DNA of 64,000 nucleotides. It comes from an uncultured Lachnospira sp. GTDB taxonomy: Bacteria > Bacillota > Clostridia > Lachnospirales > Lachnospiraceae. The DNA is taken from NCBI GenBank assembly GCA_944381165.1, contig CALWKC010000008.1, positions 21,461 through 85,460 on the forward strand. The letters are read 5' to 3'. This document shows, piece by piece, positions 14,005-30,923 of this stretch; the first letter of the stretch is position 1; the number at the start of each line of letters is the position of its first letter. Both the position numbers and the translations under genes were made by a program. The notes under the pieces are model-generated. The model was given only the letters and a program-made list of their open reading frames with translations. It was not told the origin of the DNA and made no database searches.

Positions 14005-14326
14005 CCAAAAAACTTTCGCCCTTAAATATGCCGGAAACATGTAAATCCATGTTTAAAGCACACTCAAAGACGAAAGTTCTGACTTCCGCGATACCACTTT
14101 GATTGCCGTCATGCGACGACCACTCTGTCCTATCTCCCGCCCCGACAGCAATATGTACGCATGCATAAGCATGTTCAAAAAGCGTCCGAGCCGGAACAAT
14201 AAGCTTCCATGTAACGGTAGAAACCCGGTGACACTTAATCTTCACCTCCGGCAAATTTCAGTGTACTGCTCGCAGAGGATGTTACCCGGAATTACATACC
14301 GCCTCACACCTGCCGACGGCTCTCTG
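14005..14326 (-). ncRNA. T-box riboswitch leader controlling cstA
   Basis: The minus strand begins with AGAGAG (14325-14320) followed by a Stem I-like region. A CCGTTAC element ends that part. The T-box core AAAGTGGTATCGCGGAAG lies at 14100-14083. Directly after it a terminator can form whose 5' arm overlaps the antiterminator region. This is the standard order of a tRNA-sensing T-box: uncharged tRNA would stabilise the antiterminator and let cstA be read. I could not assign the specifier codon with confidence, so the amino acid is open. A strong promoter lies about 60 bp upstream of AGAGAG. Confidence 0.88.
14006..14077 (-). terminator. T-box regulated terminator
   Basis: ACTTTCGTCTT (from 14077) pairs with AAGGGCGAAAGT (14023-14012), followed by TTTTT. 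The long loop holds a second small hairpin (AAACATG / CATGTTT). Readthrough leads into cstA about 120 nt downstream. Confidence 0.82.
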
Positions 14327-14386
14327 AAATGAAACATTTCCGGATAAACTGTTCTGTTCATAGCATTTAACTTTCTGTTATGTGTA

Positions 14387-19733: not shown

Positions 19734-22700
19734 TTAATCCGCGAAGCTGCAGCCGATATAACCGCCGTTTTCTCCTGCAGTATAGAGACTGCTTGTCGTC
19801 TTAAGCTCATACAGACCTCCGAGATTAATACTTCCGTCATCATTTCTGAAAATCTCATGATAGTCTGCTGTATAAGCCCCTGTTGATGCGTTGTAGCCAG
19901 GAATCTCCGTGCTCACGAAATCAGAATTGCTCACGGTATTTTCTCTTGCCTCAGAACCTGTATACTTGGTCTTTGCTCCGTCAGTGCATGTCCACTGATT
20001 TACCCAATAATATCCCTGTCCTTTATAGTTATACAGAACATGGCTGAGCTCTCCTTTGAACTGGTCTGTCGCAGATGAAGATGATGCCGCTACAGACAAT
20101 ATGTTAGTGTACTTTGCGTCTGCTGACGTCCTGTAACACATGTAATTTGCCTTATTTGTGTCATATTTTCCGTTATTTACAGCAGTACAGTTAGTCATTG
20201 TAACAGCTCCGCCGTTTCCGTTATCGGTAAATCCTGTAGCGCCGTTGTTAAACGCAAGGCAATTCTCAACCACATGAGGCGTAGGGCATTCGCCGTTGCT
20301 GCCTCCGAGCTTAAAGCCGTTCATGTCGCCGTTTGCCGAGCCCGTGCCGTCAGTAAGCTTGCCGTTGCCAAATGCAACGCAGTTCTTGATTGTCACAACA
20401 CCGATAGGACCTGTCGCAGGCTTTGCGTATAAATCCCAGCCGTCATCGCTGTTGCAGTATGAAATACATCCGTCAAATACATTTCCCTCACCGCATGTAA
20501 GCTTTGCTGCAAAGCCGTCCGCATTCTCGCATGTAGCCAAATCCTTATTGTTATATGCTGTACAGTTAAGAATTGTATTGTATGAAGGCCACTGTTCAAT
20601 GCTGTCATAGCTTGTGTTGTATCTGCTGAGCTGCAGGCCTGTATCATGGTTGCCGTAGAATTTGCAGAGTTCGATTATATTATAATCGCCTGACAGAAGC
20701 ATACCGTTATCGCCTGCATTGCAAATATCGATGTCATAGAAATGCCAGTATGAGCCGTCAAGAGTAATTCCTCTGTTAGAGCCCGCCTCAGCCATTCCTT
20801 CAAAGTCTATTGTAACTGTCTTTCCGTTAATACTGCTTATCTTCTTATAGCCAAATGCGTTTCCGCTGTTGCTCTCATCAATTATGATAGGAGCGTTGTA
20901 CATTTCATATGCATAATATGTACCTGAAAACATCCATATTGTATTTCCTGCATTTACGGTATTTATAGCAGTCACCAAATCCATAGGATCTTCAAATGTA
21001 CCTGCCGCAGATGAAGTTCCGTTTACAGAGACATAAATATCTCCAGCCTTGTAATCAGGCGCTTCCTCACGCACCTCATCATCGTCAGTATCTCCCGTAT
21101 CTCCTCCCGGATTTGTCGGTTTTTCTTCCGGTGTTGTAGGCTGCTCACCAGAGCTTCCCTGTCCCGTAACAGAAATATAGTATAGATTAGCTGTGTCAGC
21201 CTTTGTTATTGTATGGCTTCCTGCCTCCAAATTAACTGTGAGAATTCCGTTTGATGCGGTCAGCTTCTCGCCGTCAACTTTTATACTATTTGAGAAATCC
21301 GAGTTAAATACAAGCGTAAGTGTTCCCTCAGACTCCATTGTAAATGAAATATTTGTAGAGCTTTCAATCTTTAAACATTTTGTAAGCGTAAGACCGTTAT
21401 AATTAACAGTTCCTTTGCTTGAAGACATATTACCCTCAATTACAAAGTAATCGCTTGTCTTATCCTGTTCTGTAAAATTGTGTGTATATGTTTCAGAAGT
21501 ACTTGGAACAGTCGGCTCCTCTGTTGGTTCTTCAGTCGGCTGTTCTGTAGGCTCCTCTGTTGGCTCTTCAGTCGGCTCTTCTGTAGGTTCCTCTGTTGGT
21601 GTTTCCGTCGGTTCCTCTGTCGGTGTTTCCGTCGGCTCCTCGGAGCTGTCCTGTACAGTCACTGATATATAGTACAGATTAGCTGTATCAGCCTTTGTTA
21701 TTGTGTGGCTTCCTGCCTCCAATTCAACCGTAAGAATTCCGTTTGAAGCCGTCATCTTTTCGCCGTCGATATTGATGCTCTTTGAGAAATCAGAGTTGAA
21801 TACAAGCGTGAGTGTTCCCTCAGATTCCATTGTAAACGAAATACTTGTAGAGCTCTCAATCTTTAAGCAATCTGTAAGTGTAAGACCGTTGTAATTAACA
21901 GTTCCCTTGCTTGAAGACATATTGCCCTCAATCGCAAAGTAATCGCTTGTCTTTCCCTGCTCTGTAAAGTTATGTGTAATTGTGCCTGTAACAGTTGGAG
22001 TAGTAGGTTTCTCCTCCGGTGTTGTCGGCTCTTCTGTTGGCTGTTCAGTAGACTCTTCCGGTATTGTCGGATTCTCGCCGGAGCCGCCTGGATTTTCACT
22101 TGAAGTGCCGTCCATTCCGCCTACTGACTTAAGCTGTGAAGTATATGACATAAGCTTTGACTTAAGCTCCTGATTTACTTCATACGACTCATCATCAACA
22201 GAATTATCAAATGTCCACTCAAAGTCTCCTCCGTTCATACGTCCGGCAAAATTAACTACTGTGTTCTTTGCGTCCTCAGCAGACTGAACAGTATAACTGT
22301 AAAAGTTTGATGCGGTATCAAAATTGCTGTATTTAGAACCTCCCTTTGTAGCTGTGCAGTCTATAACCTCATCTCTTGATGATGCGAGATAAAAGTCAAA
22401 CTGGTCAGAACTCTCATTCTGTGTCACAGCAGCCTTAGCTCCCTCGATATGATTTCCGTATGCCTTGATAACGCCGCCGTTCTCGCCGCTGAATGTACCG
22501 CTTGAGGTGTCTGAATAAAGAATATCAGAGCCCTGGCCTGCCATTAACATAGGATACTTGCAGTTTCTGAAATAGTTGTTCTCCACAAATACAGAGCTGC
22601 CCATTGTAGCGCCAACTCCGTATTTTGAATTACCATCATAGTAATTGTTATAAATATGAACTGTGCATGTCCTTATTCTAGGATGTCTTGAATCTGAATG

Positions 22701-23750
22701 GTCATACCAGTTATGATGATATGTGATATAATTTTCTGTAGATTCACTCTTCATGCCCTGAAGGTTACTCTTACCGGTATCATAAAAATGATTATATGAA
22801 TGTGTTATATATGTAGATGTCTTTGTATCAAGAGCGCCGTCGCCCTTTACCTGGTCTGCATCAGAGCCGGCATGTCCGTAAAAGAAATCACAGTTGTGCA
22901 CCCATACATGGTCATTTTTCTGCTGAAGTCCTACATTATCTCCCTCTGAACTGTCGCAGTTCATAAAAGCAAGATTTCTGAGCTCAACATTGCTTGAATT
23001 CTTTATTCTTATTCCAAAGCCGTTGATTGTCGAGTCCTCGCCAACACCCTCAAATGTAATTCCGTTGGTGCAGCCGTCTATAACAATATCGCCCTTGTCC
23101 ATAACAGCCATATCTGTGATATTTCCGATAAATCTCACACACAAAGGTCTGCTGTCTTTGCCCTTCTTAAATCCGTTGATAATCGCCTGAATACCAACGC
23201 AAGGATTTGAGGTTGCCCCTGTAACCTCAAGTGAAACCTCGTCCTTATTTTCCTCTGTGATATATAAAACCACAGCGTTGCTCTTGAGCGTTCCGTCATC
23301 ATTGTAAGCTCCTGATGATGTACCGTTCACAAAGCCGTAGCCGCTCCTGTCATGCGCATATACATTAATCGCTGATGTCTGCGCGTACACTGAGCCGCTC
23401 TCCAAAACAGCCTCAACCTTTAATGTGTAGCTGCCCGCCTTTAAGCCAAGCGCATCTACACGCCAGTAATCCGGATATTCTCTGATTAACTCGTTGTCGA
23501 GCTGTTTGTAAGCTGAGTCAGAAGCTGACGCTTCCTTTACATATGCCTTGTATCCTGTGGCTCCTTCCACAGCATACCACTCCGCATATGCACTCTCAAA
23601 CCACCCGTCTGACTCTTTAATTGTCAGACTTGTCTGCACGCTTCTTGTAGCCGCAGTTACACCCATCTGCAGCATAGAAGCGAGCACCATTACGAAAGCC
23701 AGCATAAACGCTACGGCTTTCCTGCACTTTTGAAAATGCCTCTTCTTCAT
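19734..23750 (-). CDS. Secreted bifunctional pectate lyase PL1 - CBM77 - CBM77 - PL9
   Basis: Extracellular enzyme of 1338 residues. A signal peptide spans about 1-34. The PL1 lyase (about 100-430) shows DHVWVHNCDFFYG, GALDTKTSTYITHSYNHF and the catalytic-Arg region DSRHPRIR near 355. Two near-identical CBM77-like modules lie at about 591-695 and 755-860, joined by a TEEPTEEP linker. The C-terminal PL9 domain (about 895-1338) has DGFAAKLT and SDDGWDLYAK, the Ca2+-site signature. PL1 and PL9 cut homogalacturonan by beta-elimination; CBM77 binds low-ester pectin, and a PL1/CBM77/PL9 enzyme is known from Ruminococcus flavefaciens. The ATG at 23750 has AAGGGAG 7 nt upstream. No dockerin or sorting signal is present, so the enzyme is probably released or held by other means. 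Confidence 0.93.
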   Translation of the reverse strand: MKKRHFQKCRKAVAFMLAFVMVLASMLQMGVTAATRSVQTSLTIKESDGWFESAYAEWYAVEGATGYKAYVKEASASDSAYKQLDNELIREYPDYWRVDALGLKAGSYTLKVEAVLESGSVYAQTSAINVYAHDRSGYGFVNGTSSGAYNDDGTLKSNAVVLYITEENKDEVSLEVTGATSNPCVGIQAIINGFKKGKDSRPLCVRFIGNITDMAVMDKGDIVIDGCTNGITFEGVGEDSTINGFGIRIKNSSNVELRNLAFMNCDSSEGDNVGLQQKNDHVWVHNCDFFYGHAGSDADQVKGDGALDTKTSTYITHSYNHFYDTGKSNLQGMKSESTENYITYHHNWYDHSDSRHPRIRTCTVHIYNNYYDGNSKYGVGATMGSSVFVENNYFRNCKYPMLMAGQGSDILYSDTSSGTFSGENGGVIKAYGNHIEGAKAAVTQNESSDQFDFYLASSRDEVIDCTATKGGSKYSNFDTASNFYSYTVQSAEDAKNTVVNFAGRMNGGDFEWTFDNSVDDESYEVNQELKSKLMSYTSQLKSVGGMDGTSSENPGGSGENPTIPEESTEQPTEEPTTPEEKPTTPTVTGTITHNFTEQGKTSDYFAIEGNMSSSKGTVNYNGLTLTDCLKIESSTSISFTMESEGTLTLVFNSDFSKSINIDGEKMTASNGILTVELEAGSHTITKADTANLYYISVTVQDSSEEPTETPTEEPTETPTEEPTEEPTEEPTEEPTEQPTEEPTEEPTVPSTSETYTHNFTEQDKTSDYFVIEGNMSSSKGTVNYNGLTLTKCLKIESSTNISFTMESEGTLTLVFNSDFSNSIKVDGEKLTASNGILTVNLEAGSHTITKADTANLYYISVTGQGSSGEQPTTPEEKPTNPGGDTGDTDDDEVREEAPDYKAGDIYVSVNGTSSAAGTFEDPMDLVTAINTVNAGNTIWMFSGTYYAYEMYNAPIIIDESNSGNAFGYKKISSINGKTVTIDFEGMAEAGSNRGITLDGSYWHFYDIDICNAGDNGMLLSGDYNIIELCKFYGNHDTGLQLSRYNTSYDSIEQWPSYNTILNCTAYNNKDLATCENADGFAAKLTCGEGNVFDGCISYCNSDDGWDLYAKPATGPIGVVTIKNCVAFGNGKLTDGTGSANGDMNGFKLGGSNGECPTPHVVENCLAFNNGATGFTDNGNGGAVTMTNCTAVNNGKYDTNKANYMCYRTSADAKYTNILSVAASSSSATDQFKGELSHVLYNYKGQGYYWVNQWTCTDGAKTKYTGSEARENTVSNSDFVSTEIPGYNASTGAYTADYHEIFRNDDGSINLGGLYELKTTSSLYTAGENGGYIGCSFAD
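21170..21978 (-). repeat. Duplicated CBM77-like coding module and Thr-Glu-Pro linker repeats
   Basis: Two direct repeats of about 316 bp (21170-21486 and 21663-21978) encode the two CBM77-like modules; their proteins are almost identical. Between them 21500-21640 is a tandem array of short units encoding EPTE/EPTEEPT. The high DNA similarity points to recent duplication or gene conversion. Confidence 0.88.
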
Positions 23751-24108
23751 GTTTAAACTCCCTTTTACATTATTTGGGAAATACATTCCCTGAGGCATAT
23801 ATTAGCACATTTGCCATAACAATCAACTGTCTTTTTGTTTATATTTTCCATTTTATTGTATTTATTTAAGTACAATCTTACAAATTATTCTTAATATATT
23901 CACACTAGTGCAATCAGGCTATTTTAATCATATATAGCTTTACTGTTAAATTATCTCTTATATAACACACTCTTTACACTTTATATCAGATTATTTTTCT
24001 GTATTTTGTGGCTTAATCAAGACTTTTTCACTTGCAATCACAGTAATTTTTACTTACACTTAACAGCGTGACTATAAATAAAATATAACCTAAGAAGGGA
24101 GCATTTTT
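23751..24108. other. Divergent intergenic region, pectate lyase / MATE
   Basis: About 360 bp of AT-rich sequence between divergent genes. It contains the lyase promoter and, towards 24080, T/A-rich boxes that may serve the MATE gene (TATAAA, TAAAAT near 24073-24085) without a convincing -35. No ORF with coding character, and no clear operator palindrome, was seen. Confidence 0.45.
23799..23826 (-). promoter_or_regulatory. Putative promoter of the pectate lyase gene
   Basis: Minus-strand TTGATT (23826-23821), 16-bp spacer and TAATAT (23804-23799) lie about 50 bp before the ATG. A short GGGAA / TTCCC hairpin lies in the leader. Confidence 0.5.
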
Positions 24109-25533
24109 ATGGACAGCCAAAATACAGCAAGTTCAGAATTGACAGAAAAGGATAAAAAATTCAGAGACTTTGCGTTAAACGGAAATCTCTGGAAGGTTAT
24201 TTTTTATGTATGTATACCGCTTTCAGCTTTTCAGCTTTTTAACCACCTGTTTAACATACTTGACACGATGATGGCATCACATGTCAGCGCCATTGCAGTG
24301 TCTGCGGTAGCCTACCTGTCACAGCTCCAAAACATGATAAGCGCTATAGGCGTCGGACTGGCAGTCGGAAGCTCGCTTAAAATCAGTGAGGCGTACGGTG
24401 CAGGCGACTATAAACTTGTCAAAAAACGATTAAGCACCTTGATTGCAATATGCGCTATATGTTCGGCGGCAGTCCTTTGTATGCTTCCATTTACACCTGC
24501 GCTGCTTAGAGCCTGCGGAACACCTGACGATTTTATCGCAGTAGGCACAAAATATTTTGTAATCACACTTTTTTCAACCGTTTTAAGCTTCTTCAACAAT
24601 GTTTACATAGCAATAGAGCGTTCACGCGGAAATTCAAAACGAATCCTGCGCCTGAACATGTTTGTAATTATTTTAAAGCTTTCAATAACAGCATTTTTTA
24701 TTTACGGTCTGAATGCCGATATTACCATGATTGCAGTTGCAAGCGTTATATCACAGGCTTTTCTGTTTATAATGGCAATACACAATCTTTTAAAAGGAAA
24801 CGATGCATTTACCTTCAGCTTCGGCAGTATTCGTTTCAGAAAAAACATTGTTAATCCCATGTTAAGTCTCTCTTTTCCTGTAATTGTGGAAAAGGTTGCC
24901 TTCGCGCTCGGCAAAACCGTAATAAATTCAATGAGCAAAAACTACGGCTCTGTTACTGTAGGAGCACTCGGCATTTCCAACAACATAAACGGAATAACCA
25001 CTCAGATGCAGAACGGCTTTCAGGACGGCGGAGCTTCGATAATCAGCCAGAACCGCGGTGCAGGAAATATCAAACGCGCTCTCGGCACCTTCTGGCGTCT
25101 GCTTATAATTGAATCTGTTATCGGACTTATCATGTATATTGTTTTAAATGTATTTGCCGGCCCTATAACTTATCTGTTTGCGAACAGCACCGAGGGCTTT
25201 AATGAAGAATTCCAGAAAACAATTATCCGTGTATTCCGATACGATTCCTTCGGCGGATGCGTTCCGCTCGGCGTAAACTGTGCGGTTATGGCTCTGCTGT
25301 TCGGTTTCGGAAAAACAAAGCTCACGCTTCTGTGCAACTTCTGCCGCGTGTTTATCTTCAGAATACCTATTCTGTGGGCTCTTCAGAACTTTACCAATCT
25401 GGGAAGCGAGAGCGTCGGAATTGTAATGGGAGCAAGCAACATACTCACAGCTATGATGTCCAGCATAGTTGCATTCTTTGTAATCAGGAATATAAAAAAA
25501 GAAATGTCGGAAAAAAATAAGAACTCTCAATAA
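24109..25533 (+). CDS. MATE family efflux transporter
   Basis: Twelve-helix membrane antiporter of 474 residues that exports organic compounds using Na+ or H+. Typical segments are the N-terminal VIFYVCIPLSAFQLFNHLFNILDTMMASH, here split across helix 1 and its loop, and IGVGLAVGSSLKISEAYGAGD. The C-terminal half repeats the pattern (QDGGASIISQNRGAGNIKRA). An AAGGGAG site is 7 nt before the ATG. It is transcribed away from the pectate lyase gene and converges on the noncoding-RNA transcript. Substrate not predictable. Confidence 0.92.
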   Translation: MDSQNTASSELTEKDKKFRDFALNGNLWKVIFYVCIPLSAFQLFNHLFNILDTMMASHVSAIAVSAVAYLSQLQNMISAIGVGLAVGSSLKISEAYGAGDYKLVKKRLSTLIAICAICSAAVLCMLPFTPALLRACGTPDDFIAVGTKYFVITLFSTVLSFFNNVYIAIERSRGNSKRILRLNMFVIILKLSITAFFIYGLNADITMIAVASVISQAFLFIMAIHNLLKGNDAFTFSFGSIRFRKNIVNPMLSLSFPVIVEKVAFALGKTVINSMSKNYGSVTVGALGISNNINGITTQMQNGFQDGGASIISQNRGAGNIKRALGTFWRLLIIESVIGLIMYIVLNVFAGPITYLFANSTEGFNEEFQKTIIRVFRYDSFGGCVPLGVNCAVMALLFGFGKTKLTLLCNFCRVFIFRIPILWALQNFTNLGSESVGIVMGASNILTAMMSSIVAFFVIRNIKKEMSEKNKNSQ

Positions 25534-25544
25534 TATAGCATGAA

Positions 25545-26599
25545 ATAAAAATAAAAATCGAACGACCGTTGTATCTTTTTACGCTTTATGATTATGTAAT
25601 CTATTGATTATATAACCATATGCTCATTTGATACAACGGTCGTTCTCAGACTCTTCTTCGTTATTCAATTTTTTTCTCCTTTTCGATAACTGATTGAACG
25701 GTTTCAACCTCATCGATAACTATTACATATTAGATGTAACAGTTTGTTTTCTGCTTTCGCAGTTTTTCTTTTTCCCTGCTCGTAATGACTTTTTCTTATT
25801 GATTATTTTCTTTATAAGATTTCACATCTTTGATTCTATCCGTTCTTTGAAATCTATTACTTTTTATAAGCTATCTTTTATGACTTTTCATTTTCATTCA
25901 TATTGCTTTATTGATTTTATCATCTTTAAAATTACTTGTTTTGCTTTAAATACCAGATTTATTATTCATACAAGATATTGAATATTAAATCTTTTATTCT
26001 CTGCTTTGCTTTCATTTTTATTATGAATAAATCCTTTAAGCTTCTGATTTTTAAATGAATAATCTTTTTGATTGCTCATCTACCGGAAATAAATTTCTTT
26101 CCCGGATATTATCTTTTCAATGTTCTGTCTTGTAAAAATCCTAATCTTTTAAGAATGTCTCTTACTTAGAAAGTTACTACATTTTAACTTTAATAATACG
26201 AAGTTTCAGTATATCAGGATTATTCACTATCCCAATATCTTCAAAATGTATGAAGTATATTCCCTTTCAATCTCTGCTCTTATGTCAGAAACTTTCAAGT
26301 TGTATAAATCATAGATTTTTCCAGCCTTTGTTTCTTTACACAAATTCGGAATCTTCTGTATTACCTTTGTGGTATCTGTTCAATATGAAATGCCAGCTAT
26401 TGTAACCTTTCACGTTTACATCATCTCTAAATCTTATGACGTTATCTATCATTTCACATATTGGAAAGGTCTTTCTTGCGGGGAACTGCTATGCACTACC
26501 ACCTTCATATTGAGGATTTGATTCTATTATCTCCAACGGAATCAACCTCCTTTACAACTTGAACACTTTTTGTTTGTGTTTTTGTTGTTTCCTTTTTGT
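25545..26599 (-). ncRNA. Candidate large structured noncoding RNA (about 1.05 kb)
   Basis: Transcript defined by a near-consensus promoter (26634-26606) and a 16-bp terminator (25645-25560). No intact ORF is present, but many complementary helices are. TTCAAGTTGTA (26563-26553) pairs perfectly with TACAACTTGAA (26304-26294) and closes a 270-nt domain. Inside it lie GAGGTTGATTC/GAATCAAatCCTC (26549-26512), ACCTTT/AAAGGT (26470/26363), CAATATGtgAAATG/CATTTCATATTG (26463/26381) and CGTCAT/ATGATG. Further hairpins lie at 26261-26234, 26191-26170, 25855-25817, 25762-25751 (GAAA tetraloop), 25739-25723 and 25709-25700. The strand is very A-rich between helices. This resembles large bacterial RNAs such as ROOL, GOLLD or OLE, but membership is not established. 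A decayed gene is the alternative. Confidence 0.6.
25547..25645 (-). terminator. Terminator of the candidate large RNA
   Basis: GAACGACCGTTGTATC (25645-25630) pairs over 16 bp with its exact complement at 25575-25560. A 54-nt loop, itself partly foldable, separates them. GATTTTTATTTTTATTT follows on the minus strand. Confidence 0.78.
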
Positions 26600-26605
26600 A
26601 ATTGT

Positions 26606-26634
26606 ATATTAGCATGCAGTTGTATATTTGTCAA
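26606..26634 (-). promoter_or_regulatory. Very strong promoter of the candidate large RNA
   Basis: Perfect TTGACA (26634-26629), exactly 17 bp, then TAATAT (26611-26606). Upstream on the minus strand are runs of As (about 26640-26670) resembling an UP element. Start of transcription is predicted near 26599. Confidence 0.78.
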
Positions 26635-26791
26635 TACATTTTTTAAAATTTTTTTTGATTTTTTTTAACCTTTTTGCTTTAGCCTTTTCTTTTCTTTATA
26701 ATTGTGTATATATTATAGAATATTCTGATAATTTATGTGGTTTATAGTGCATTACTCCTGCCCTAATCATCGATATAAAGCTTACGTTAAT

Positions 26792-26935
26792 CCGTCACAC
26801 AAAAAGAGTTCGCTTGCGAACGAGTAGTTGAGGACATAACGGTGCGCGGCATTAATACCGTCACACAAAAAGAGTTCGCTTGCGAACTCTTTCGCGAGGC
26901 GCGGATTCGTAAGAATAATTACCTTTCCGCGTCTC
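26792..26935 (+). repeat. Interspersed palindromic repeat, copy 2, with an internal 30-nt direct repeat
   Basis: A 30-nt segment beginning CCGTCACACAAAAAGAG occurs exactly at 26792-26821 and 26858-26887. The second one completes the palindrome GAGTTCGC-TT-GCGAACTC (26872-26889). It is followed by a second hairpin, GAGGCGCGGA (26896-26905) with TCCGCGTCTC (26926-26935). The whole is the fullest copy of a family also found at 3121-3172 and 56182-56245. No coding function; the apparent frame through it only translates the repeats. Confidence 0.8.
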
Positions 26936-26951
26936 TGCGATCCTGCGGAGC

Positions 26952-27000
26952 ATTTTTGTTCTATAGGAAAGTTCAAAGAACTTTCCTATAGAACAAAAAT
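26952..27000. repeat. Perfect 23-bp inverted repeat with 3-nt loop
   Basis: Arms 26952-26974 and 26978-27000 are exact reverse complements (ATTTTTGTTCTATAGGAAAG then TTC) around AAA. Each side ends in five T or A, so it would terminate transcription in either direction. It may equally be a short palindromic mobile repeat. It partly overlaps the terminator of the cohesin-like gene. Confidence 0.8.
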
Positions 27001-27036
27001 ACAGCCAAAGGCATTAAAAACACCCCGGCTGTATTT
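26990..27036 (-). terminator. Terminator of the cohesin-like gene
   Basis: AAATACAGCC (27006-26997 read on minus as GGCTGTATTT) pairs with 27027-27036 across a 20-nt loop, followed on the minus strand by TTTGTTC. It lies about 40 bp past the stop codon at 27078. Confidence 0.65.
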
Positions 27037-27077
27037 CTTATTATTTACCCATGCGGCAAATCAAACTTATATGCCAA

Positions 27078-28736
27078 TTAACGGGTATTATTATCTTTGT
27101 CTTCTGACAGTTCCGATATGTCAAGAAGCTCTACGGAGTCATCGGACGTTTCCGGAGATGAAGCTTCATTTTCAATCTCTGTATTTTCATATTCATCGTT
27201 TTCTCCGTCCGCGAAATCCTCGTCATAATAATTTTCATCTTCAAGAGAATCCTCGTCGTCTTCAAATATATCTTCATCGTCGTCAAAGCTTCCGCCCACT
27301 AGCTCTCTTGCAATTTTTCCGTTCTTTGAAGCCTTAGCCGCGCATACACACGCTGTTATTATTGAAATTACCGCTACGGCGGCCGACGCAAGGCTTATAA
27401 TTTTCCAGAACATGCTTCCCGAAAAGAAACCGGAATTATCTGCGTCAGCCGATACGCCCTGTGCTTCGCTCTGTGATTTTATCGTATCAGGAAAGGCAAA
27501 AAAGCGCTGTATTGTATTATATTTATAGTCATAGCTGTACCAGCCTGATATTCCGTCACTGTTTATGCCGTAAAAAACGCAGTACTCATCGCTGCTTCCC
27601 TTAAGCACACTGACATTAACGCCGTTTATCTGCGCTTCCTCAATTCTGTAGCCTGACGGAAGCTCCATTGACGAGGTGATAGGAAGAATAATATAGCTTA
27701 TTTGCGGCTGCTGTATTTCATTATATCTGACAAATGTCTCTGAAACGCTGTCATACACATAAAAACCTGATTGTTCCGACGATATAACGGCATCAAGATA
27801 CATAATAACAACTTTTCCGGAATAACCGACTCCCGCCTTAACAGACTGTCCGTTATACTCATACTCGGCCTCAGAAAAGCCCGACGGAAGCGGATGCATT
27901 GTAAAATCGTCAGATATTATAAAGTCAGTTCCGTTCACACTGACCATTACAAGCTGTCCGCCGTCATCTGTACTTTCTTCCGGAGCCTGACTCTCCCCCT
28001 CCTGCTGTGTTTCATTTTCGCCTGCCGCCCTTGTTACCCGGAGTGTATATGTCCGCTGTTCGCCGTTTTCAGCAGTTACGGTCACATATATATAGTTAGT
28101 TCCCACGCTTAAATACGTTCCCGAAACTGATACCGACGCATTATCATCATTTGCATATGCGCTCACGGTAAGTCGCTCACAGCTGTTTTCAACCGATACC
28201 GAATACGAAGTTTTATCAGACGAAAATGAAGGGTACAGGCTCCCAGGGCTAACCTGAAGTGAAGAGAGCGAATTGTCATTGGATGCCGCCTCAGGGTTAT
28301 AACCTGAAACTGTAAGAGAAAACGGCATAACCTGCATCGGAAATGGTCCGGGGCGCGGGCTGCTATCATGTACCTGTGAGCCTGAAGATACTTTTATTGT
28401 AGATGATCCTGCTTTCAAGATTTTAAACCTAATTTTTACCGAAGTAACACCATCTCTGAAAACAATCCATTTTAAAGTTTCTGCATCTTCTCTTTCACCG
28501 GGACTAATACTAATATACTCAAGCATTTGCGGTTCATAAACTATAAGTATCTCACCTGCTGAAATCGTTTGATTAGCTCTATATGTTATTGTCACTTCGA
28601 CTTCTTCACCCACATTTCCAGAAACAGAATCACCGTAAAACTCTACTTTACCTTCAGCAAAAGCAACATTGCTTTCTTTAAAAAATACTACTAAAAATAA
28701 CAGTAAAAATATAATAAAAAATTTCGTTTTTTTCAT
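27078..28736 (-). CDS. Membrane-anchored protein with cohesin-like and cadherin-like beta-sandwich domains
   Basis: Protein of about 552 residues. A signal peptide (1-27) is followed by a cohesin-like domain (about 29-145: SGNVGEEVEVTITYRAN, then ILIVYEPQMLEYISIS). A cadherin-like beta-sandwich lies at about 155-240 (SLSSLQVSPGSLYPSFSSDK). The middle part is unassigned. One transmembrane helix (about 442-467) precedes an 85-residue, strongly acidic C-terminal tail expected in the cytoplasm. I preferred the ATG at 28736, with GGAG 6 nt upstream, over the one at 28748. It follows the dockerin-bearing glucosaminidase gene by about 60 nt, so the two may bind each other at the cell surface; that is inference. 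Confidence 0.75.
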   Translation of the reverse strand: MKKTKFFIIFLLLFLVVFFKESNVAFAEGKVEFYGDSVSGNVGEEVEVTITYRANQTISAGEILIVYEPQMLEYISISPGEREDAETLKWIVFRDGVTSVKIRFKILKAGSSTIKVSSGSQVHDSSPRPGPFPMQVMPFSLTVSGYNPEAASNDNSLSSLQVSPGSLYPSFSSDKTSYSVSVENSCERLTVSAYANDDNASVSVSGTYLSVGTNYIYVTVTAENGEQRTYTLRVTRAAGENETQQEGESQAPEESTDDGGQLVMVSVNGTDFIISDDFTMHPLPSGFSEAEYEYNGQSVKAGVGYSGKVVIMYLDAVISSEQSGFYVYDSVSETFVRYNEIQQPQISYIILPITSSMELPSGYRIEEAQINGVNVSVLKGSSDEYCVFYGINSDGISGWYSYDYKYNTIQRFFAFPDTIKSQSEAQGVSADADNSGFFSGSMFWKIISLASAAVAVISIITACVCAAKASKNGKIARELVGGSFDDDEDIFEDDEDSLEDENYYDEDFADGENDEYENTEIENEASSPETSDDSVELLDISELSEDKDNNTR

Positions 28737-28796
28737 TCTATTCTCCATTCACCAATATATATTTACATTTACCGCAAACATATATTTTATGAGTAA

Positions 28797-30923
28797 CTAT
28801 TTCTGACTAATATTCTCTACTCTATATAGATGATTTATTAAAACCGCAAGGTCTATTATTTTTATATTGCCATCGTGATTTACATCACCAGCCTCATAAT
28901 ATACATTTTCCAATCTTTCAATATTATACAAATAATTAACCATTATGGCCGCATCTCTAATATCAATATCACCGTTCCCGTCTATATCCCCGTACACAAC
29001 AAACGTATATCCAGCAATTTCCTTTCCTGTGGAATCGGTTATAACAAGACGGTCACCTGTGGCAATTATATCTCCGTCGTTCTTTCTCCCGCCGTTTTTA
29101 TCATAAACTGCGCTTGAGGCTCCGCCTGAAGTATTGATTGAACTTAAAACCGTTGATATATTGTCTCCGACTGTTATGCCTGAAATAAACCCGCGCTCTT
29201 TATCAAGCCTGTAGCCTGTACTGAACGAAGGAGTTTCAGGATTCTCCGGTGTCTCAGGGTTTTCCGGGTCTTCCGGATTGTCAGGCTCCGATGGAAGCTC
29301 AGCTTCCTTTCTCACAACATTTATATAATACTTTCTCTGTGAACCATTCTGAGCCGTCACAGTAATTTCAATATTATTGTCTCCCGTCTCAAGACTGTGT
29401 ATACCTGTTCCTTGAATATTTGCAGAATCCGATATTGCTGAAGCATTTATCGTTACACTGTCAACACTGTATTCAACAATAAGGCCGTACTCTGTTGTGT
29501 AACTGCCGAATGTAGGTGTAAGCTTAAAATTATCCACGCTTAAATCCGATAAAAGATTGTTCGGGTCACCGTCTCCGTCAGGCAACGGACACACCTCATC
29601 AGGCATATTGTCGTATACAGGTATAGTAAACACAAGCCCTGTATCCTGTTTTGACCGAGCAGAATACGCATTAGATGCTTTTGATGCCTCGCTTCTTGGA
29701 GCAAGGACATTTGTCATATACTGATGCCAGTAAGGCGAATCAGAAACAACGTCAAACTTCTCATAATAAATCGTATTCTGTCCGCGGTCGATATAACCGC
29801 TGCCGATTAACCCTGCACCGCCGATGATAGACTTCATGCGCGTATTCCACGGGCGAAGCGTAGACGCGTCTTCTCTGCTCGCGTAAATCATTCCGTTCGT
29901 AACAGCACTGTTGCCTCCGCCAAGCGCCGCGCCCTGATTGTAATAATTATAAAATCCGTTGTAGCCCGGCACTGTTCCGGAAATACTTCCGCCGTATCCC
30001 GAAGAGCCCTGCTCCTGTATGATTCTTGTCGCAAGATGATACGGGCTTACGCCTGATTCTCTTCCAGCCAGCATCAGCGCTGATGAATATGTATAGTTTT
30101 GTCCGTTGTAGGATAAATCATGGTCTGAATTCTCCATGAATGTTCCGGCAATGATCTGGTCAAGTCCATCTTCCGTCTGAAGAGCTGCGTTATAAGCAAG
30201 ACTCTCAAACATAAATACATAGGGCTCTGTAAGGAAATTTCTCGGGTCAAGAGCATACTCCAGCAGTTCCTTAGACGCCTGCACCCAGCCGCCGCTGTCT
30301 AGCTCTGCCCAGCTCCCCGTATTCCAGTCGTAACAGCCCGGATCAATGGACTTCCATGAGCTTTTCGCACTTCCGTAGATAAGACTGCGCCCTAATACAT
30401 TCTGATTTTCAACGACCTCATTCCAGTCCTTATTTACATAGTCAGCCACAAAAACCCACTTAGGGTACTGTGCGTGGAGCTGCCTTAAAGCGTCCTTATA
30501 CGAATCAGGAAAGCCCTGCTCGTCAAGATACGCCTCAAAATCAGAATCCTCTGAATATGAAACATCCTTCGTTGTAAACTCACCGCTTATATACCCATAT
30601 GTATATGAGCCGTTAAGATAAAAACCTATTCTGTACCAATAATATGTATCACTTGTATACACAGTATCATATATATCAAAAGTAAACGAATCATCTACAA
30701 CTGTTATAATATTATCGCTTGTTGACGTGTCGGGCTCCGTTCGCACACGCAGTCCGCTCACCCCGGCATTGACATGCCCTGTCGCCACCGCATTCTCCGC
30801 CTTTACGGAAACAGGCGCAAGATAAGAGCCTATTCCGGCTGCAGTAAATCCAATCATTATTAAAAGCAAAAAGGCTGCTGTTATTCTTTTGAATGATAAA
30901 ATATTTGTCTTACTTTTGTTCAT
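28797..30923 (-). CDS. Secreted SH3b - glucosaminidase - cadherin-like - dockerin protein
   Basis: Secreted protein of 708 residues. After a signal peptide (about 1-42) come a bacterial SH3 domain (46-120, GLRVRTEP), an endo-beta-N-acetylglucosaminidase-like region (about 125-400, with ALMLAGRESGVSPYHLATRI and IQEQGSSGYGG), and a cadherin-like sandwich (about 455-545). A Pro/Glu linker leads to a C-terminal dockerin (644-705). The dockerin has both Ca2+ loops, DIDGNGDIDIRDAAIMVNYL and DVNHDGNIKIIDLAVLINHL. Such enzymes cut peptidoglycan glycan strands. The dockerin on a wall hydrolase, next to a cohesin-like surface protein, is unusual. The stop of prfC is 9 nt upstream. Confidence 0.86.
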   Translation of the reverse strand: MNKSKTNILSFKRITAAFLLLIMIGFTAAGIGSYLAPVSVKAENAVATGHVNAGVSGLRVRTEPDTSTSDNIITVVDDSFTFDIYDTVYTSDTYYWYRIGFYLNGSYTYGYISGEFTTKDVSYSEDSDFEAYLDEQGFPDSYKDALRQLHAQYPKWVFVADYVNKDWNEVVENQNVLGRSLIYGSAKSSWKSIDPGCYDWNTGSWAELDSGGWVQASKELLEYALDPRNFLTEPYVFMFESLAYNAALQTEDGLDQIIAGTFMENSDHDLSYNGQNYTYSSALMLAGRESGVSPYHLATRIIQEQGSSGYGGSISGTVPGYNGFYNYYNQGAALGGGNSAVTNGMIYASREDASTLRPWNTRMKSIIGGAGLIGSGYIDRGQNTIYYEKFDVVSDSPYWHQYMTNVLAPRSEASKASNAYSARSKQDTGLVFTIPVYDNMPDEVCPLPDGDGDPNNLLSDLSVDNFKLTPTFGSYTTEYGLIVEYSVDSVTINASAISDSANIQGTGIHSLETGDNNIEITVTAQNGSQRKYYINVVRKEAELPSEPDNPEDPENPETPENPETPSFSTGYRLDKERGFISGITVGDNISTVLSSINTSGGASSAVYDKNGGRKNDGDIIATGDRLVITDSTGKEIAGYTFVVYGDIDGNGDIDIRDAAIMVNYLYNIERLENVYYEAGDVNHDGNIKIIDLAVLINHLYRVENISQK

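Follow-up and report, generated by a model that had tools for sequence, protein, structure and literature searches.

A previously undescribed structured RNA family of Lachnospiraceae with a conserved translation start in its pseudoknotted core

ROOL, GOLLD and OLE are stand-alone, A-rich and pseudoknotted RNAs of hundreds of nucleotides that occur in Firmicutes, and all three have Rfam models. In tmRNA a short ORF is embedded among pseudoknots, RNAIII and SgrS are dual-function regulatory RNAs, and in leader-peptide attenuators the position of the ribosome and the fold of the RNA are mutually exclusive. Here we analysed a stretch of 64,000 nucleotides from an uncultured Lachnospira sp. (the window), in which a further RNA is predicted on the minus strand (Table 1), and compared it with these systems.

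The predicted RNA resembles ROOL, GOLLD and OLE in being stand-alone, hundreds of nucleotides long, A-rich, pseudoknotted and located in Firmicutes, but it differs from them in having a conserved translation start and ORF within its core. Neither the window RNA nor 12 homologous loci matched the covariance models of these three RNAs. The only Rfam match in the 64-kb window above the gathering score was a T-box leader at 14063-14370 (minus strand). A permissive scan of 25400-26800 (E ≤ 10) returned five matches, all far below the cut-offs and none to ROOL, GOLLD or OLE, and the 12 homologous loci gave no Rfam match. The family is absent from the Rfam 15 copy that was searched. A first-pass annotation of the window had suggested that the locus may be a new class if it matched none of these RNAs, and the unmatched models, together with the homologues and covariation described below, agree with this suggestion.

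Like tmRNA, the new RNA has a short ORF amid a pseudoknot; unlike tmRNA, it has no tRNA-like part that ARAGORN can find and no Rfam match. A replacement of tmRNA was rejected because the genome has its own tmRNA on another contig (G000:C21), and a replacement of 6S RNA was rejected because the window contains no RF00013 match and the genome's 6S RNA is at G000:C12. With RNAIII and SgrS the new RNA shares an own promoter, a small ORF and a structured remainder, but its peptide shows no visible constraint, no target is known and it is homologous to no Rfam family. The mutual exclusion of ribosome and fold in leader-peptide attenuators is also proposed for the new RNA, which differs from them in its own terminal hairpin and in having no fixed downstream gene. 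Literature searches, as far as the texts were accessible, returned nothing tied to this RNA; a fragment may stand in supplementary motif lists, and the accessible main text of PMC8040213 does not contain Blautia, Lachnospir- or Coprococcus. We place the RNA among the large structured bacterial RNAs, with the embedded, frame-kept start site as its distinguishing feature.

Homologues and distribution

The window RNA almost certainly belongs to a conserved structured RNA family, which is previously undescribed and found in gut bacteria of the Lachnospiraceae. Covariance model R1 was built from 45 copies, the window copy among them, and its 99 matches comprise 81 distinct copies in two groups, E (48 copies) and the V clade (33 copies). 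As one of the 45 model rows, the window copy scored 182.9 bits; it has the covarying P1, PK, P2, P3 and P4 and the upstream Shine-Dalgarno (SD) sequence and start that characterise R1 members. When 22 genomes of the genus were searched at the DNA level, G021 gave a copy of 99% identity and G010 and G012 gave further copies; with a core query, 23 of 397 Lachnospiraceae genomes matched. A pattern scan of genome contigs found 103 stretches, of which 80 were examined; 61 of those 80 match R1 and the remaining 19 do not at E < 0.2. Three copies (L048, L034, L044) were omitted from some alignments.

Within the genus, 5 of the 22 genomes had an R1 match; in Lachnospiraceae as a whole 64 of 299 sampled genomes did, three of these only at E 0.005-0.01. 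The order, class and phylum samples, all of which include Lachnospiraceae members, gave 5/246, 2/291 and 1/299, with no match outside Lachnospiraceae. These genome counts are lower bounds because the filters were stricter, few candidates were scored per genome and the samples include Lachnospiraceae itself; given the same large-search filters and the sampling, absence of the RNA outside the family is unproven. The titles of matching records are mostly Lachnospiraceae and include Blautia hansenii, Coprococcus comes, Dorea phocaeensis and Faecalicatena contorta; some are broader (Eubacterium, Ruminococcus, Clostridiales, Thermoflexaceae). Two loci titled uncultured Bacteroides (L087, L101) also carry the RNA and are probably mislabelled or mixed bins. 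Two R1 matches per genome were observed in G102, G133 and G270, which suggests a second, divergent copy.

In comparison with ROOL, GOLLD and OLE, the new RNA was not found in the phage, plasmid and viral collections searched, apart from two IMG/VR contigs that matched the first pattern. This viral link was rejected: the matches lie within coding sequence, model R1 does not match them, the contigs look like copies of one phage and the pattern match looks like chance. A stricter pattern matched no viral contig, and phage and plasmid records gave no match.

Promoter, fold and 3' end

The promoter described in the first-pass annotation, including the A-rich sequence upstream, is present in the window. 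A promoter scan of the whole region gave 15 sites versus 16.7 expected, which is not above chance. Among homologues, a promoter-like site (at least 10 of 12, within 420 nt upstream) preceded 74 of the 80 copies with upstream sequence, versus 12 of 77 base shuffles. At the other end, the inverted repeat GAACGACCGTTGTATC / GATACAACGGTCGTTC (25645-25630 with 25575-25560) is followed by a T-rich tract, as expected from the terminator with U-tract that had been proposed; a simple terminator scan misses this hairpin because its loop is 54 nt. Terminal stems were not counted as covariation because the search itself demands complementary arms. These results support a discrete structured RNA that starts behind its own promoter and has homologues; its transcript is predicted from the sequence.

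According to the ORF list, the minus strand has no ORF of at least 40 aa between the promoter and 25545 (about 1.05 kb). The description of the transcript as gene-free holds in this sense, but it passed over a 15-codon ORF with an SD and a conserved start. The plus strand of the span contains a 95-aa ORF at 25694-25981 and three ORFs of 40-51 aa. The spacer upstream of the promoter contains two near copies of GTCACACAAAAAGAGTTCGCTTGCGAAC at 26796-26900, each with an inner palindrome, and a near-perfect long palindrome around GTTCTATAGGAAAGTTC...GAACTTTCCTATAGAAC is located at 26957-27000.

Table 1. Features of the window copy (positions in the window; P1-P5, helices; PK, pseudoknot)
Feature	Position	Strand	Evidence
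Promoter TTGACA-17-TAATAT	26606..26634	-	sequence scan; A-rich upstream
Predicted transcript, ~1,055 nt, both ends estimated	25545..26599	-	promoter and terminal repeat; homologues
Shine-Dalgarno GGAGG	26546..26550	-	GGAGG in 67/79 scored copies, shorter SD in 9 more
Short ORF, TTG start, 15 codons + stop, through P1 and PK into P2	26489..26536	-	frame open in 63/79
P1 5' strand	26504..26513	-	99.1% of cells paired; double-sided change in 3/10 pairs
P1 3' strand	26380..26389	-	covariation count
PK 5' strand	26497..26502	-	99.3% paired; double-sided change in 3/6 pairs, one sequence each
PK 3' strand	26369..26374	-	covariation count
P2 5' strand	26488..26495	-	73.9% paired; double-sided changes in all 7 pairs
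P2 3' strand	26391..26397	-	covariation count
P3 5' strand	26465..26470	-	67-78% paired; double-sided changes
P3 3' strand	26405..26410	-	covariation count
P4 hairpin, conserved loop GUAAAGAA	26327..26344	-	96.7% paired; double-sided change in 3/4 pairs
P5: UUUCUAA-stem-GAGCAGGGAA, tip enlarged to rod in window	25772..26172	-	P5 cell count
Long rod: short helices and A-rich internal loops	25793..26156	-	z -6.3
Conserved AAUUGAAUAA before terminal stem	25661..25670	-	AATTGAA in 31/41, ATTGAAT in 32/41 E copies
Terminal 16-bp hairpin	25560..25645	-	inverted repeat; comparable stem in 68/81 copies

Covariation was counted in an alignment of 45 copies, with the structure drawn on L094. In the 33 pairs of P1, PK, P2, P3 and P4, 89.6% of the cells formed pairs, versus 79.9% in shuffles and 30-48% with slid partners. 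Double-sided changes numbered 154 versus 60.9 (sd 6.2) in shuffles and 29-54 with slid partners; further pair types, one of five covariation measures, were not above shuffles (52 versus 49.3). Pairing reached 97-99% in P1, PK and P4 and 67-78% in P2 and P3. The support for PK consists of near invariance and single-sequence double changes, because each of its double changes occurs in one sequence. P5 also covaries: 77 of 80 cells were paired in 16 chosen E copies, versus a shuffled mean of 68, and none of 2000 shuffles was as high. A loose pattern had located P5 in 26 of the 48 E copies, some of them doubtful, and the 16 were chosen from these for the count.

Two helices named in the first-pass annotation, CAATATG (in P1) and ACCTTT (in P3), are thereby supported by covariation. 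Its 11-bp pairing between segments 250 nt apart did not hold up as a family feature in the test made: L109 shares the perfect complementarity of the window, and copies pair with themselves no better than with one another (p 0.23 for E, 0.27 for V). Two V copies, L178 and L182, pair well there, L178 with many G-U pairs. The hairpin proposed to sequester GGAGG was not seen in other copies on inspection by eye.

The span folded at z -8.0 versus 20 dinucleotide shuffles, the 5' domain at z -3.2 and the rod (26175-25790) at z -6.3. The RNA is indeed highly structured, but partly owing to the rod, an insert-like element of about 370 nt that carries much of the extreme foldedness of the window copy and that most copies lack. 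The P5 arms are 389 nt apart in the window versus 33 nt in the G010 copy (L128). From core start to the end of the terminal stem, copies measure 429-992 nt (41 E) and 358-666 nt (27 V), and none of these 68 exceeds the window RNA in length. Across the family, median z was -3.2 in 41 E and -2.3 in 27 V copies, with flanks at -2.2 (34) and -0.9 (27); folding energy alone would be insufficient proof of the family.

Translation start, short ORF and anti-SD

GGAGG is part of a conserved translation start, which the first-pass annotation had missed. A start codon was present in all 79 scored copies (ATG 40, TTG 33, GTG 6) with CC directly before it, as the locating pattern requires CC plus a start codon. 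This pattern failed in 2 of 81 copies (L122, L073), one of which is cut at its 5' end; both were positioned manually in the alignment used for the tree. In 71 of the 79 copies P1 begins 24, 27 or 30 nt from the start. The ORF stays open through P1 in every V copy (33) and in 30 of the 46 E copies scored. Among the remaining 16, fifteen meet a stop after 2-4 codons and one, L043, lies in another frame.

In a tree made without the ORF columns, at least 13 length changes were counted among the open copies, all multiples of three. The same tree gave 6 frame changes, which are confined to E copies whose ORF does not continue through P1. This tree was built quickly and leaves many forks uncertain, and an open copy has the frame by definition; the telling evidence is that lengths in open copies keep changing by threes. 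No synonymous excess was detected in the nearest pairs, where the fraction was 0.21 versus 0.25 expected for the linker (24 pairs) and 0.19 versus 0.24 for the V tail (9 pairs), both with little power. Four ORF peptides tried had no Pfam or NCBIfam match, and an active peptide was not adopted as an explanation. The lack of synonymous excess counts against a peptide function and leaves the frame evidence untouched. What seems to be maintained is thus the frame and not the peptide sequence, pointing to translation as such.

The V clade has an additional element. Of the 33 V copies, 31 (for example L064 and L113) carry an anti-SD CCUCC, mostly CCUCCG, in the stretch that separates the core from the terminal stem, and none of the 48 E copies has it; base shuffling gives an expectation of 0.26 for V and 0.61 for E. 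Because E copies lack CCUCC and 16 of 79 copies lack an ORF through P1, neither element is essential in all copies. Two reduced relatives of about 340 nt, L013 (G005) and L011 (G007), are 87% alike. By eye they keep the promoter, the SD, a 3-codon ORF, AAUUGAAUAA and the terminal hairpin; they have no P1/PK core and no significant R1 match, and adjoin ABC-transporter genes (named by reading).

Genes around the RNA vary between copies, and no fixed co-directional downstream gene was found. The window copy is flanked by the convergent gene of a MATE transporter, which is the next gene, and by the gene of a cohesin/cadherin-like protein. By reading of the sequences, the nearest upstream gene is aconitase-like in 16 copies, and the downstream gene is TPR/ATPase-like in 24 V copies and RluA-like in 14 E copies. 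The region 19734-30923 of the window also encodes a dockerin protein and a large pectate lyase that bears CBM77 and PT repeats; together with the cohesin/cadherin-like protein, these suggest a system of cellulosome-like or pectin-degrading type.

A possible response to ribosomes

Tentatively, we prefer to read the family as a stand-alone RNA whose activity is set by ribosome engagement. Its 5' end forms a complete predicted ribosome-binding site, and the short ORF that follows supplies the 5' strands of P1, PK and P2. Since the ORF supplies the P1 and PK strands and enters P2, the folded knot and an elongating ribosome would be mutually exclusive on this stretch if the site is used. Passage of a ribosome would open the knot; with no initiation, or with early termination in copies having a 2-4-codon ORF, the knot would stay folded. 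In the V clade, the CCUCC near the 3' end could close the site by pairing with the SD. We infer from these sequences that the RNA is transcribed and bound by ribosomes, that cells would use it as a switch, and that the folded form would act, possibly on a target in trans; the RNA may sense or capture ribosomes. The covariation of P1-P5 including PK, the promoter sites, the start in 79/79 copies, the multiples-of-three lengths, the CCUCC of the V clade and the start kept in the reduced relatives argue for this reading. The reduced relatives without the required knot, the 16/79 copies without an ORF through P1, the E copies without CCUCC and the one covariation measure not above shuffles argue against it, as do the uncertain forks of the tree and the fact that open copies are defined by their frame. 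The most complete form is doubtful: a new RNA class that reads out ribosome activity, in which a strong start site feeds ribosomes into an ORF-built pseudoknot, the peptide is irrelevant, initiation or elongation sets the fold and action in trans, and an anti-SD closes the site in one clade.

Rather unlikely, in our judgement, is a large ornate structural RNA, acting as scaffold or oligomer, whose start-like site would be incidental or would do no more than attract 30S subunits. Its length, A-richness and pseudoknot and the 16/79 copies missing the ORF through P1 fit such an RNA, and GOLLD, ROOL and OLE are reported as homo-oligomers in PMC12286853, but the start site is kept even with 2-4-codon ORFs and, by eye, in the reduced relatives. 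The open ORF in 63/79 copies, and in every V copy, and a QY[EV]SG core common to copies could instead speak for a dual-function RNA with an active peptide of 15-18 or about 21-33 residues, as in RNAIII/SgrS. We consider this unlikely, as that core overlaps P1 and PK, the synonymous fractions below expectation give no sign of constraint (with little power) and the four peptides tried matched nothing in Pfam or NCBIfam.

A cis-acting leader of the next gene is quite improbable: the same-strand downstream gene is related in 24 V copies and RluA-like in 14 E copies, but the next gene in the window is convergent, 68/81 copies have a strong terminal stem and the neighbours differ. The AT-rich composition, the lack of a long minus-strand ORF and the only moderate family fold energies given above would also suit a decayed gene or spacer with a chance fold, a view given almost no weight because 81 distinct homologues, covarying helices and conserved promoters speak against it and the covariation largely refutes it.

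In conclusion, our results add to gut bacteria a conserved RNA family that is large by bacterial standards. Within one predicted transcript, distinct from an ordinary messenger, it combines a ribosome start site with a pseudoknot. If the preferred reading of ribosome engagement is right, a stand-alone RNA would sense ribosomes, which is directly testable in cultured species.
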